A stretch of DNA of 64,000 nt from Methanolobus psychrotolerans (GTDB taxonomy: Archaea > Halobacteriota > Methanosarcinia > Methanosarcinales > Methanosarcinaceae). Made by a program: the position numbers and the translations under genes. Positions 26,827-45,475 of the stretch are shown here, in pieces. The notes beneath the pieces are model-generated. The model had not been told where the DNA came from, did no database searches, and worked only from the letters and a program-made list of their open reading frames with translations. Where the stretch lies: positions 1 to 64,000 of the forward strand of contig NZ_MBKP01000009.1 in the NCBI RefSeq assembly GCF_002243045.1, in the 5' to 3' direction. Each line of letters begins with the position of its first letter. Position 1 is the first letter of the stretch.

Positions 26827-27185
26827 ATCACCGGATGCAGATATATTACAGTGGATTCAAAACCCGGATCTACAGGATTTTACATCAGATATGGATTTAA
26901 GATCGTTAAAAGATCTATTAAGAAAGACTACACGTCCCTGTAGCTGAACATGCATCCGATAATAGAGGGCCTTGAATAGATCTTCCCATACAACAAAGCC
27001 CAATTATCGTACATGTACAGCAGTGAGCATTAGTGGGAGGTCCGCTTTTGCGGGGAGAATGGATGGCATCCTTTGTATCCGTGCAGGAACGATCAATGCC
27101 AGGACCAGCCTTTCCAGGACGGCATCTTTGCGTTAGATCCGGAAGTGAGAATTTTGTTCTTTTTATGGGAGTGGAATGTGCTGCC
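26827..27185 (+). repeat. degenerate segmental duplicate of 30952-31343 (GNAT 3' end plus downstream)
   Basis: Near-identical run from ccggatgcagatatattacagtggattcaaa to gggagtggaatgtgctgcc, with a 32-bp deletion. Confidence 0.9.
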
Positions 27186-27300
27186 CGCTGCTGTATGGTT
27201 GTTTTGTTCTTAGACCTGAACGCTTTTTACTTTTGATAAGCCAACTTTCGGGATTCCCTTCAAGAAACTTAATAAGAATTGTCACCAATAGATATGTGAG

Positions 27301-30584: not shown

Positions 30585-31100
30585 ATGTCTGAATCTGATC
30601 TTTCTATTTCTGCGCTTTCTAAGAGAGACGATGTTTTGCTTTTTTGCTGCAATAACGATGATTTGAATGATTTTTTAAAAAATGATGCTCTGAGCAATCA
30701 GGAACAACTCATAAGTAAAACCTATGTTTGTTATTATCGGGGACACTTTGCAGGATACTTTACCCTGACCACAGATACTATAAAAGTTAGATCCGTTGAT
30801 GATTCTGACTGTGTTGATGATTTCCCATATTCCCGTTATCCGGCTGTAAAACTCGCAAGGCTTGCCACTGACAAAAGATTTGAAAGAAAAGGTATTGGCT
30901 CGCATATGTTGTTTGCAGCAATAGGTCTTGCCCAAAGGGTAGCTGACATCACCGGATGCAGATATATTACAGTGGATTCAAAGCCCGAATCTACAGGATT
31001 TTACATAATATACGGATTTAAGATCGTTAAAAGATCTATTAAGAAAGACTACACGTCCCTGTATCTGAACATGCAACCGATAATAGAGGACCTTGAATAG
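30585..31100 (+). CDS. GNAT-family N-acetyltransferase (possible TacT/AtaT-like toxin)
   Basis: ARLATDKRFERKGIGSHMLFAAIGLAQRVADITGCRYITVDSKPESTGFYIIYGFK. Confidence 0.85.
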   Translation: MSESDLSISALSKRDDVLLFCCNNDDLNDFLKNDALSNQEQLISKTYVCYYRGHFAGYFTLTTDTIKVRSVDDSDCVDDFPYSRYPAVKLARLATDKRFERKGIGSHMLFAAIGLAQRVADITGCRYITVDSKPESTGFYIIYGFKIVKRSIKKDYTSLYLNMQPIIEDLE

Positions 31101-31343
31101 ATCCCCCGCCCATACAACAAAGCCCAATTATCGTACATGCACAGCGGTGAGCGTTAGTGGGGTTCGCTTTTGCGGGGAGAATGGATGGCATCCTTTGTAT
31201 CCGTGCAGGAACGATCAATGCCAGGACCAGCCTTTCCAGGACGGCATCTTTGCGTTATATCCGGAAGATATCGCTTAAATGCTGGAAAGTTTCCGGAAGT
31301 GAGAATTTTGTTCTTTTTATGGGAGTGGAATGTGCTGCCTGCT
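30952..31343 (+). repeat. GNAT 3' end plus downstream, duplicated at 26827-27185
   Basis: Direct visual alignment of the two segments. Confidence 0.9.
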
Positions 31344-31772
31344 TCCTAAACGGATACTTTTGTACAAAGAACTACGAGTATGCCTGTGTTATCTGCTAAA
31401 CGACTGTTTAGCAGGCACTCAACTCCGTAGGAGGTGAGTGTATCCGTGTTCATCTGTGGTTTCTTTCAAAATATGAACCGCAGATAAACGCAGATACACG
31501 CAGATATTGCTTCTTGTCGTCCGTGTCTGTCGATGGTCAGGTGACCATTCGCATCTCTGCAAGATGAACATATATTCATGATGAACCGCACCGCCTGCGG
31601 CGGGGTGGTTGCATTGTTATAAGATCCACCAAAGAGCATGCAACAAATCTCAGCAGACCGACCAGCGGACCCCGTCTTATAGTGATCCACAGCTTAAAAC
31701 AGACAGATCAGCATCATTATCCCCTCAATATATATAACACCGCAAATTATTCTTGCGAGATTTTCACAAAAC

Positions 31773-31780
31773 TTAAATAT
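31773..31780 (+). promoter_or_regulatory. archaeal TATA-box candidate (TTAAATAT)
   Basis: Same box in the copy at 36190-36197; about 25 nt upstream of the first helix of the leader. Confidence 0.55.
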
Positions 31781-31798: not shown

Positions 31799-31849
31799 AC
31801 CCAACGAAGTATAATTATACAGGCATACGATCTGCCTGCTGTGTTGGGT
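31799..31849 (+). ncRNA. candidate structured 5' leader (three-way junction), copy 1
   Basis: P1 ACCCAAC/GTTGGGT, P2 GTATAATTATAC, P3 AGGCA/TGCCT; P1' overlaps the GGGTGA RBS. Confidence 0.5.
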
Positions 31850-31858
31850 GAATGAAAA

Positions 31859-32035
31859 ATGGTGGTAGTGAGCAGTCTTTCTGATCTTAGGATTCTGGTT
31901 ACAGGTGGCGCCGGCTTCATCGGCAGTCACGTAGTTGACAGGCTTGTAAAGTCAGGTAACAAAGTTACCGTTTTTGACAACCTCAGCTTCGGCAGGATGG
32001 ATTTCATAGCCCATCATCATAATAATTCTTATTAA
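31859..32035 (+). pseudogene. 5' fragment of an NAD-dependent sugar epimerase (GalE/SDR-like)
   Basis: [58 protein letters not shown]: Rossmann GxxGFIG then abrupt end. Confidence 0.85.
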
Positions 32036-32040
32036 TATCT

Positions 32041-32262
32041 ATGGATGTAACTGAGCACTATCTGATCGAGGAGTACTCAAATGGCAGAATAAGTAAGGGA
32101 AAAGCTGCCAAGATGCTGGATATCAGTATTTATGAGATCAACGACCTGTTCGAAAAACATCGTGTTAAAGATAGTATTAGCTATGAGAACTTTATCAAAG
32201 GCATGGAAATTGCTGAGAAATACAGCAAGTATGGTCCTGATAAAGAGAAAAAGAAAGAATGA
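32041..32262 (+). CDS. small UPF0175-like/HTH antitoxin-type protein
   Basis: LIEEYSNGRISKGKAAKMLDISIYEINDLFEKH. Confidence 0.6.
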   Translation: MDVTEHYLIEEYSNGRISKGKAAKMLDISIYEINDLFEKHRVKDSISYENFIKGMEIAEKYSKYGPDKEKKKE

Positions 32263-32324: not shown

Positions 32325-32630
32325 TCAGATCTGATTCTCCAGTTCGTCCAATAGATCCCGTATCATAGGCTTTGCTTCCGGGATGCCTTCCTTTACGCTG
32401 AGCCAGACAACTTCAAGGTTTACACCAAAATATCCATGGATCAGCTTGTTCCGAATGCCTGCCAGATCTTTCCAGGGAATTGAAGGGTAATTTTGCCTTA
32501 TATCCTCAGGGACTTTCTTTGCTGCTTCACCAATTATCTCCAGGGCCCGTATCACGGCGTATTGAGTCTTGATATCTTTTAGGAAATCCTCAAAAGTACA
32601 GCCATAGACAAAGTTCTCTGCTGCATCCAT
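32325..32630 (-). CDS. HEPN (DUF86) toxin, possibly N-terminally disrupted
   Basis: IRNKLIHGYFGVNLEVVW; frame continues upstream to the MNT stop but the expected ATG at the ATGA overlap is out of frame by one. Confidence 0.8.
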   Translation of the reverse strand: MDAAENFVYGCTFEDFLKDIKTQYAVIRALEIIGEAAKKVPEDIRQNYPSIPWKDLAGIRNKLIHGYFGVNLEVVWLSVKEGIPEAKPMIRDLLDELENQI

Positions 32631-32681
32631 GGCATTGCAGATGTCCTGTACATAGTCCCTTATATCCCGAATGCTAATCCC

Positions 32682-32984
32682 TCATATGGCTTCAACTTCC
32701 TTAAGTATGTATTTTCCGATATTTGGTTTCAGTGCATCTTTCATGACAAGATCCACTTTGATCCCCAGATAATCGGAAAGGTAGTTCTCCAGATGAACGA
32801 ATCTGAAAATAGTAGGAGTTTTGCTAAACTCCACCAGCACATCAAGATCACTTTCCGTAGTGTGATCTCCCCTTATATAGGACCCAAATAATCCTATGTA
32901 ACTTACATTATATTGCTCTTTCAACTCCGGCAGCATTTCGCGGAGTTTGGTTCTGTATAGTTCAACATCTCTATTATCTGGCAT
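32682..32984 (-). CDS. MNT-type nucleotidyltransferase antitoxin
   Basis: IGLFGSYIRGDHTTESDLDVLVEFSKTPTIFRFV. Confidence 0.9.
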   Translation of the reverse strand: MPDNRDVELYRTKLREMLPELKEQYNVSYIGLFGSYIRGDHTTESDLDVLVEFSKTPTIFRFVHLENYLSDYLGIKVDLVMKDALKPNIGKYILKEVEAI

Positions 32985-33164: not shown

Positions 33165-33395
33165 TGATAAGGAATGCGCAGAAGCATACTATACCCCGCA
33201 GACTTCCGGACGCATAGACAAGGTTATGCAAAAGTTTTACAGATCATCTTTGCCTGTCCATCCGCTTGCTGCAGGGGAAGTCAGCCTTAGCGAGACAGAG
33301 GCTTAAGAAATGCTGGTCTTATTCTGAAATGAACCGCAGATACACTCACCTCTTACAGAGTTGAGTGCCTGCTAAACATCCGTTTAGCAGGTCAC
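33165..33395 (+). pseudogene. duplicated C-terminal fragment of the YgiT gene plus repeat unit (parent 28573-28795)
   Basis: aaggaatgcgcagaagcatactataccccgcagacttccggacgcatagacaaggttatgcaaaagttttacagatcatc... Confidence 0.9.
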
Positions 33396-33975
33396 GCAGA
33401 TGCACGCAGATTTTTGTTTATTCTCATCCGTGTTTATCCGTGTTCATCTGTGGTTTTATTTCACATTGGACCGCAGATAAACGCAGATGCACACAGATAT
33501 TGTTTATTCTCATCTGTGTTTATCTGTGTTCATCTGTGGTTTTAATTAATAGCGAACCGCAGATAAACGCAGATGCACGCATATATTGATTCTTGTCGTC
33601 CGTGTTTATCTGTGTTCATCTGTGGTTTTAATTAATAGCGAACCGCAGATAAACGCAGATGCACACAGATATTATTTATTCTCATCTGCGTTAATCTGTG
33701 TTCATCTGTGGTTTTAGTCAATAGCGAACCGCAGATACACGCAGATGCACGCAGATATTGGTTAGTCTCATCTGCGTTAATCTGTGTTCATCTGTGGTTT
33801 TATTTCACATTGGACCGCAGATAAACGCAGATGCACGCAGATTTTTGTTTATTCTCATCCGTGTTTATCCGTGTTCATCTGTGGTTTCTTTCAAAATATG
33901 AACCGCAGATAAACGCAGATGCACGCATATATTGATTCTTGTCGTCCGTGTCTATCGATGGTCAGGTGACCATTC
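33334..33975 (+). repeat. 86-bp-period palindromic repeat array (7 units, first carries hairpin insert)
   Basis: CCGCAGAT unit starts at 33334, 33471, 33557, 33643, 33729, 33815 and 33903; ends at ATGGTCAGGTGACCAT (33958-33973). Confidence 0.95.
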
Positions 33976-35131: not shown

Positions 35132-35339
35132 TATATAACTTTTTCCAGATGACGACTTTTAAAACAAAAGAGTGGATTTTAGTTGAGATCATGCTTCGTG
35201 ATGGTATTGTCATGCAATTACAATTAAATTTACAATAGATTTTTATTATTTTATCAGAAGTTATGGAATGCGCCGCCTGCCTCCGGAACGGATGCTTTTG
35301 TACAAAGAACTACGGGTATGCCTGTGTTATCTTCTAAGT

Positions 35340-35651
35340 TGAGCAGGCACTCAACTCCGTAGGAAGTGAGTGTATCCGTGTTCATCTGTGGTTTTAATTA
35401 ATAACGAACCGCAGATAAACGCAGATGCACACAGATATTGTTTATTCTAATCTGCGTTAATCTGTGTTCATCTGTGGTTTTAGTTTATAGCGAACCGCAG
35501 ATAAACGCAGATGCACACAGATATTGTTTATTCTAATCTGTGTTTATCCGTGTTCATCTGTGGTTTTAGTTAATAACGAACCGCAGATACACGCAGATGC
35601 ACACAGATATTGTTTATTCTCATCTATGTCTATCGATGGTCAGGTGACCAT
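35340..35651 (+). repeat. 86-bp-period palindromic repeat array (3 full units plus degenerate hairpin insert and end cap)
   Basis: CCGCAGAT at 35409, 35495 and 35581; cap ATGGTCAGGTGACCAT 35636-35651. Confidence 0.93.
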
Positions 35652-36215
35652 TCGGATCTCTACAAAATTAACATATATTGATGATGGAACGCACCACCTG
35701 CCACCGATATGTTTACGCCATTATCAAACCCACCAAAGAGCATGCACCAGATCTCACCAGACCGACCAGCGGACCCCTGGACAAGCGACACAAAAGCCCG
35801 GGTATAGATAGAGCTGCTTCTCAGAACAACCCGTTATTCTTCCAGAAGAACTTTTTTTCGCAACCCCTTTCAAACTCCTCCAAAACACCGGGATAAAGCG
35901 CCGGACACCTGGCTTCTTCCAGTGTTATACAAAATATCATCACCCATGAGATAAATACACCCCAACGCCCTCAACAGTCTCAATAAACACACAACCTCCC
36001 CCATCAGACAGTACTGTCGATCCTGCTGACAGATCCTGCTAATATCCAGGGATATATCCTTTTTCTCCTCTCCGCCCGGACCGACCCCCAGCTTTTAGCA
36101 ATCCAGGCTTAAAACAGACAAATTACCACCATTATCCCCACCATTTATATATAACGCCGCAAATTATTCTTGCACTATTTTCACAAAACTTAAATATGTT
36201 CAATGAATCTAATGT

Positions 36216-36266
36216 ACCCATTGAAGTACAAATGTACAGGCATACGATGTGCCTGCTGTGATGGGT
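36216..36266 (+). ncRNA. candidate structured 5' leader (three-way junction), copy 2, upstream of flippase
   Basis: P1 ACCCATT/GATGGGT, P2 GTACAAATGTAC, P3 AGGCA/TGCCT; TATA at 36190-36197; GGGTGA RBS at 36263-36268. Confidence 0.5.
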
Positions 36267-36333
36267 GATTGAAAAATGGTGGTATCAGACAGATCATATT
36301 TTACTCATGTTTTCTTTCTGAGCTGGTAATATC

Positions 36334-37614
36334 ATGTTCAACTTCAAGCTCACCAAAACGATGCGTGATGTCCAGTGGTCATTCATCAGCCTTGCCACTG
36401 CATCTTTATCCCACCTGCTGCTAAGGATAGTTCTGGGAAGGGAGCTTGGACCTGAGGGTTTGGGAGTTTACACGCTGGTTTTTACCATTTATCTTTTTGG
36501 AATGCAATTTGCAGGTTTTGGTATTGGATCAGCTTTAACTAAATATGTTGCTGAGTTCAGTGACGAATCCAGCAAAGTCAAAGAATATGTTTCAGCAGGA
36601 TTTTCAAGTTCAATAATCACTGGCGTTATGATGGCCATTGTACTTTATTTAGTATCTGATTTTATAGCTATGTCAGTGTTCCACATTCCTGAAATGGGTG
36701 ACTTTCTTAAATTTGTATCTTTCTGTTTGCCATTCATAGCTATTCAAAAAATGGTATTAGGAGCCTTGGTTGGCCTTCGTAAAATGAAATTGTATGCATT
36801 GATAAATATTATCCAGAACACGTTCATCTTTTTATTATCTATTTACCTGGTTTTGGTCTTAAATGCTGATGTAAGAGGAGCAGTATTTGGTTTTGTTATC
36901 CCTACTATAATAATAAGCATTATATCTGCCTTTTTCATTAAAGACTTGTACAAAATTACATATTTGTCCTTTACAGACAAATTTAAGGACGTAGCATGGT
37001 TTGGATTTTATTTTGTTCTGGCAAATTCAATTGGAATGATTAATACTCAAATTGATAGCTTGATGGTTGGACATTTAATGGATGCTACAAGTGTAGGAAT
37101 ATATGCTGTTGCAATAATAATAATACATGGAATCACGTTGATACCCAATTCTGTTCATACTGCAATAGCACCGCCTATAGCGTATCACTATGGAAAAGGT
37201 GAATATGAAAAGACGATTAATTTGATTAGACAAACGATGCTTAAAGTATTTATTGTCATATTCGTTATTGCTTTAGTATTGGCTTTTTTTGGAGAAACTT
37301 TAATCGTTTTACTATTCACTAATGATTTTATATTTGCATATTCTCCCTTGCTAGTTTTACTAATTGGTTATTCTATTTATTCACCTGTACATTCTGTTGA
37401 CTGTACACTTTTAAGCATAGGGAAAGTTAATGTAATATACAAAATAGCTTTAATATGTGCTATTTGCAATATTATATTCAATATTTTACTAATTCCTAAA
37501 TATGGGATATTAGGTGCCTCATTGGCCACCAGCATGTCAATTATTTTGTTGTCAATATTGAAATTATATTTTATTAAAAAATACGTATTGGATTTGAGAA
37601 ATACTTTAAAATAA
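36334..37614 (+). CDS. flippase/oligosaccharide exporter (MATE/MVF superfamily)
   Basis: LLLRIVLGRELGPEGLGVYTLVFTIYLFGMQFAGFGIGSALTKYVAEF; about 12-14 TM. Confidence 0.9.
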   Translation: MFNFKLTKTMRDVQWSFISLATASLSHLLLRIVLGRELGPEGLGVYTLVFTIYLFGMQFAGFGIGSALTKYVAEFSDESSKVKEYVSAGFSSSIITGVMMAIVLYLVSDFIAMSVFHIPEMGDFLKFVSFCLPFIAIQKMVLGALVGLRKMKLYALINIIQNTFIFLLSIYLVLVLNADVRGAVFGFVIPTIIISIISAFFIKDLYKITYLSFTDKFKDVAWFGFYFVLANSIGMINTQIDSLMVGHLMDATSVGIYAVAIIIIHGITLIPNSVHTAIAPPIAYHYGKGEYEKTINLIRQTMLKVFIVIFVIALVLAFFGETLIVLLFTNDFIFAYSPLLVLLIGYSIYSPVHSVDCTLLSIGKVNVIYKIALICAICNIIFNILLIPKYGILGASLATSMSIILLSILKLYFIKKYVLDLRNTLK

Positions 37615-44716: not shown

Positions 44717-44824
44717 GATATTCCCTCTATATATTTACATTATTATTACTCAAATATATAGTTTTGGAATTATAATTGTGCAACGTGTAGCAGATCGGCG
44801 TTGGTGGTATAGAATGAACATCTG

Positions 44825-45475
44825 CGTTCATCTGCGTTTATCAGCGGCTCACTATTAAAACTAAAACCACAGATGAACACAGATAAACACAGATGAGAAT
44901 AAACGATATCTGCGTTCATCTGCGTTTATCTGCGGTCCACTATTAACTAAAACCACAGATGAACACGGATAAACACAGATGATAATAACCAATATCTGCG
45001 TTTATCTGCGGTTCACTATTAACTAAAACCACAGATGAACACGGATAAACACAGATGATAAAAGCCAATATCTGCGTTTATCTGCGTTTATCAGCGGCTC
45101 GCTATCAAAACTAAAACCACAGATGAACACGGATAAACACAGATGATAATAACCAATATCTGCGTTCATCTGCGTTTATCTGCGGCTCACTATTAACTAA
45201 AACCGCAGATGAACACGGATAAACACAGATGATAATAACCAATATCTGCGTTCATCTGCGTTTATCTGCGGTCCACTATTAACTAAAACCACAGATGAAC
45301 ACAGATAAACACAGATGAGAATAAACGATATCTGCGTTCATCTGCGTTTATCTGCGGTTCACTATTAACTAAAACCGCAGATGAACACGGATAAACACAG
45401 ATGATAATAACCAATATCTGCGTGCATCTGTGTTTATCAGCGGTTCGCTATTGACAAAAACCACAGATGAACACG
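44825..45475 (-). repeat. 86-bp-period palindromic repeat array (8 units)
   Basis: ACCRCAGATGAACAC starts at 44866, 44952, 45028, 45116, 45202, 45288, 45374 and 45460 (spacings 86, 76, 88, 86, 86, 86, 86). Confidence 0.95.

Follow-up and report, generated by a model that had tools for sequence, protein, structure and literature searches.

A candidate structured leader RNA recurring at variable polysaccharide loci of Methanolobus

Two leader copies and their promoters

The window analysed here is a 64,000-nt stretch of Methanolobus psychrotolerans DNA (assembly GCF_002243045.1, contig NZ_MBKP01000009.1, positions 1–64,000, forward strand), in which a promoter, a predicted structured leader, a ribosome binding site and the start of an open reading frame (ORF) occur together twice. 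The features of both copies are as follows.

31741–31757, plus strand: inverted repeat CGCAA-N7-TTGCG 5′ of the TATA box, copy 1, a possible regulator site
31773–31780, plus strand: TATA box TTAAATAT, copy 1, inside the conserved block TTTCACAAAACTTAAATATG; kept across homologues, with a spacing that fits PMC5378194
31799–31858, plus strand: leader copy 1, 60 nt (covariance model R1, 84 bits, E about 1e-18)
31799–31805, plus strand: P1 5′ arm ACCCAAC, pairing with 31843–31849
31809–31820, plus strand: P2 hairpin GTATAATTATAC, unpaired in the minimum-energy fold of copy 1
31821–31837, plus strand: P3 hairpin AGGCA-N7-TGCCT, the best conserved of all leader elements
31843–31849, plus strand: P1 3′ arm (P1′) GTTGGGT, overlapping the ribosome binding site
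31847–31851, plus strand: ribosome binding site GGTGA, copy 1, read from the sequence and complementary to the usual archaeal 16S tail
31859–32035, plus strand: 58-codon remnant corresponding to the N-terminal part of an NAD-dependent sugar-nucleotide epimerase (relatives in L080 and L082 are full-length, with 324 codons)
32041–32262, plus strand: 73-codon ORF, beginning 5 nt past the stop of the remnant
36158–36174, plus strand: upstream element CGCAAATTATTCTTGCA, copy 2
36190–36197, plus strand: TATA box TTAAATAT, copy 2
36216–36275, plus strand: leader copy 2, 60 nt (P1 36216–36222/36260–36266, P2 36226–36237, P3 36238–36254, ribosome binding site 36264–36268)
36276–36329, plus strand: 17-codon ORF MVVSDRSYFTHVFFLSW, proposed coupling ORF
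36334–37614, plus strand: polysaccharide flippase (MOP/Wzx-like; Pfam PF01943, E 1.4e-25), beginning 4 nt past the stop of the 17-codon ORF

An earlier note on this DNA had read positions 31799–31849 as a candidate three-way junction that would hide the ribosome binding site, in the manner of a translational switch or thermometer, an interpretation that is, as a whole, partly supported. Re-reading of the sequence located P1, P2 (GTATAATTATAC), P3 and P1′ where that note had placed them, and a second copy of the structure was found at 36216–36266. Both leaders sit in a 139-nt repeat (87% identical) that spans the promoter and the ATGGTGGTA start, and between them there are two fully compensated pairs (P1 A-U/U-A and P2 U-A/C-G) plus one C-G/U-G exchange. 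The ATG at 31859, to which the note had assigned the ribosome binding site, opens only the 58-codon epimerase remnant; a search of this genome for an intact epimerase orthologue (E up to 1e-90) found none, and the 73-codon ORF behind the remnant may itself be a fragment. Ribosome binding site complementarity was scored against the usual archaeal 16S tail; the 16S end was not found in this assembly.

In Methanolobus psychrophilus, the distance from promoter to start site is about 19–22 nt (PMC5378194), and the same spacing counted from the TATA box at 31773–31780 predicts a start at 31799–31802, that is, at the first base of P1. The proposal that the transcript begins with the structure agrees with this published spacing, from which we infer the start site in the present genome. 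The inverted repeat at 31741–31757 and 36158–36174 is recognisable 5′ of several homologous promoters. Several matches to the promoter pattern, found ahead of a TetR-like regulator gene or other genes, lacked a leader and were rejected as candidates.

A narrowly distributed leader family

A covariance search across the family and the order returned 13 clear homologous leaders. Within the family, all 13 score at least 64 bits with model R1; they are spread over 11 of the 112 genomes (going by the named contigs, ten Methanolobus and one Methanomethylovorans metagenome-assembled genome), and the next best match reaches about 25 bits. Among the 186 genomes of the order no clear copy was added, the one weak match (G167) scoring 28.5 bits. 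Rfam gave no match in the window at the gathering score; at E up to 1 there was none for copy 1, and the two sub-threshold snoRNA matches for copy 2 were taken as noise. Epimerase orthologues elsewhere in the family, inspected by eye, had no such leader. Judged from these searches of sequence, the leader is real and narrowly distributed within one archaeal family.

Two subfamilies are distinct in the register of P1 and P2: set A comprises the two window copies with L019, L034, L021, L029, L020 and L022, and set B comprises L023, L024, L010, L026 and L039. A third group (set C, L090–L094) has the promoter block in common but a different leader, followed by a short ORF and then a wecB remnant; this ORF is 17 codons long in four of the five members and overlaps or abuts the remnant. 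One further pattern match, on a viral contig (L155), was attributed to chance because its context differs and it lacks a match to the model.

Conservation of the predicted structure

Folding of the two window copies is predicted to yield -17.5 and -17.8 kcal/mol; compared with dinucleotide shuffles, z is about -3 for both (over 31799–31849 for copy 1), and 1–2 of 200 shuffles are equally stable. Since the minimum-energy fold of copy 1 lengthens P1 onto P3 by an AG/CU step and leaves P2 open, the three-way junction of the earlier note holds as one of two near-equal predicted forms, and not as the most stable one.

Nearly every homologue retains P3, with a loop whose length ranges from about 4 to 9 nt; in P1 and P2 some changes are compensatory. 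The covariation score of the six close set A copies was reached by 4 of 500 shuffles and that of twelve copies by 20 of 500, and set B alone did no better than shuffles (116/500); exchanging P1 arms between copies gave p = 0.08. P1 is strong in eight of the 13 copies and cut to little more than ACC/GGU in the other five. The leader thus appears to be structured, with the compensated pairing in homologues that characterises a conserved structured mRNA leader, although statistical support is modest, strongest for P3 and weakest for the uneven P1.

Predicted pairing of P1 with the ribosome binding site

The overlap of P1′ with the ribosome binding site was borne out, with coverage limited to the GGU of GGUGA. 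Strong P1 pairing to this site is predicted in eight of the 13 copies, both window copies included, and all eight are remnant sites; put the other way, strong P1 occurs at 8 of 10 remnant sites as against none of five leaders before intact or nearly intact genes, a pattern noticed post hoc among few, related sites. No such pairing is predicted for L019 and L029 (both with intact genes of 324 codons), for L010, whose epimerase has a premature stop after codon 299 (the stop being codon 300), or for the diverged leaders L107, with an ORF that is open as far as the contig end, and L097. The pattern requires two changes when placed on the tree relating all 13 leaders, so it does not reflect a single inheritance. 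Gene integrity is not mirrored in how strongly the binding site matches the 16S tail. For comparison, among 57 neighbouring genes that have such sites, 28% are predicted to be as occluded as the two window copies, and 3.5% to have 5′-arm pairing of this kind. Because the leaders of intact or nearly intact epimerases, together with L107 and L097, lack the pairing, masking does not stand as the conserved function: in the predicted folds the masking geometry is present in both window copies, yet it is not the conserved core of the leader.

The further suggestions of a thermometer and of a ligand-binding switch fared less well. Predicted P1 pairing is hardly altered from 15 to 50 C in either window copy, remaining closed where the binding-site helix of an RNA thermometer would melt within the physiological range, which makes a thermometer unlikely. 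A ligand switch is unsupported, given the absence of a credible Rfam relation at E up to 1, and no conserved unpaired pocket was seen.

ORFs behind the leader

Polysaccharide genes, in many cases a flippase, follow the leader at most sites. At L080 and L082 it is followed by the epimerase together with wecB and a nucleotide-sugar dehydrogenase, and at other sites by remnants and then by a flippase, aminotransferase or other genes, with leader ORFs ranging from 9 to 324 codons. At 9 of the 13 sites (the two window copies, L019, L029, L021, L034, L024, L026 and L039) the leader ORF stops between -4 and +8 nt from the next start, the exceptions being L022 (+77), L020 (none), L010 (+122) and L023 (only from a TTG). 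Random junctions would be expected in that range in 11–25% of cases, and with six of nine independent junctions inside it the tail probability is about 0.0006–0.01, for a count made post hoc on few, related sites. Archaeal translational coupling requires overlaps or very short gaps (PMC10666635). As measured on the sequence, the stop-to-start distances, +5 and +4 nt for copies 1 and 2, fit the published limits for a termination-reinitiation pair (PMC10666635).

Interpretation and alternatives

The reading that we prefer, to which we give a probability of about 45%, is that promoter, leader and coupling ORF form a conserved head for variable polysaccharide operons, in which the structure tunes ribosome entry and termination-reinitiation feeds the first real gene. 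The head would consist of the promoter, a structured leader of about 60 nt (P3, usually P2 and variably P1), the ribosome binding site and the start of the first ORF. Ribosomes would enter at the leader site, read the first ORF, whether the original epimerase or a short remnant, stop beside the start codon of the next polysaccharide gene and re-initiate there. A strong P1, as in both window copies, would hold the GGU of the binding site and should reduce entry, and no such pairing is predicted where the first ORF is an intact or nearly intact enzyme; because P1 grips the GGU where it is strong and leaves it unpaired before such enzymes, the leader may set the rate of ribosome entry into the variable operon.

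Other explanations draw on the same observations. If P1 at the predicted first base, together with P3, shielded a long mRNA from 5′ decay, with effects on translation secondary, the position of the predicted start and the retention of the leader where the first gene was lost would both be accounted for, and in a cold-adaptive methanogen the long mtaA and mtaC 5′ untranslated regions (UTRs) are reported to add to the stability of transcripts in the cold (PMC5378194); five copies have a weak P1, however, and we regard such a stabiliser as unlikely. Control of the first ORF by the opening of P1, as a switch or thermometer, would suit the overlap of P1′ with the binding site in both window copies and the temperature-dependent start selection of M. 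psychrophilus, with its predicted site-burying 5′ UTR (PMC5378194). It is nevertheless quite improbable in view of a P1 that is predicted to stay closed over the whole temperature range, the missing pairing before intact or nearly intact genes, and the lack of both a ligand-pocket signature and a relative in Rfam.

Conserved DNA operators, with P2 and P3 acting as palindromes beside the promoter and the RNA structure incidental, would explain why, at the DNA level, several copies have a perfectly palindromic P2 and why the promoter block and upstream inverted repeat are conserved; yet the P3 loop varies in length, which is unusual for an operator, and the P1 arms co-vary in close copies despite lying 37 nt apart, so that we hold this account to be decidedly improbable. 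The bacterial eps-associated RNA acts by processive antitermination, and by analogy an element working at the level of transcription could serve long polysaccharide operons, at whose heads the leader sits. We found no similarity to support this, the leader stands at several sites before a remnant behind which there is little, if anything, on the same strand, and we consider it very improbable.

In methanogens, the known conserved cis-acting leaders are few; the present candidate is small, narrow in range and recurrent at variable surface-polysaccharide loci. Like it, the epsC and wcaG RNA motifs (Weinberg 2010, PMC2864571) are structured elements in the 5′ UTR ahead of exopolysaccharide genes, but they are bacterial and phage motifs, whereas the Methanolobus leader is archaeal, within one family and without an Rfam match. 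Short overlaps or gaps between ORF and gene are common to archaeal termination-reinitiation pairs (PMC6728339, PMC10666635) and to the sites described here; unlike in the known pairs, a conserved structured leader here precedes the first ORF, which in many cases is a mini-ORF or what is left of a gene, and the second gene is not the same from site to site. The 5′ UTR of the M. psychrophilus Hsp20 gene (PMC5378194), from the same genus, is likewise predicted to bury its ribosome binding site, although the evidence there is a temperature-dependent selection of start sites. If the coupling reading is true, an archaeon may retain one regulated expression head while the genes behind it are exchanged. 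A bolder version, which we find rather doubtful, would make it a natural archaeal bicistronic expression head, with the leader and a gene remnant retained as coupling ORF while polysaccharide cassettes are swapped, and P1 strength adapting to enzyme or remnant.

Neighbouring features of the window

Adjoining HepT-like and nucleotidyltransferase (MNT-like) ORFs at 32325–32984 on the minus strand are likely to be a toxin-antitoxin pair (Pfam PF01934, PF01909). Repeats of the CAGATAAACGCAGATGCACACAGATATT type, with an 86-nt spacing, flank the polysaccharide genes at 33343–33962, at 35281–35728 and, inverted, at 44811–45000. The segments 26827–27189 and 30948–31343, spaced about 4.1 kb apart, are duplicates with 94–98% identity.
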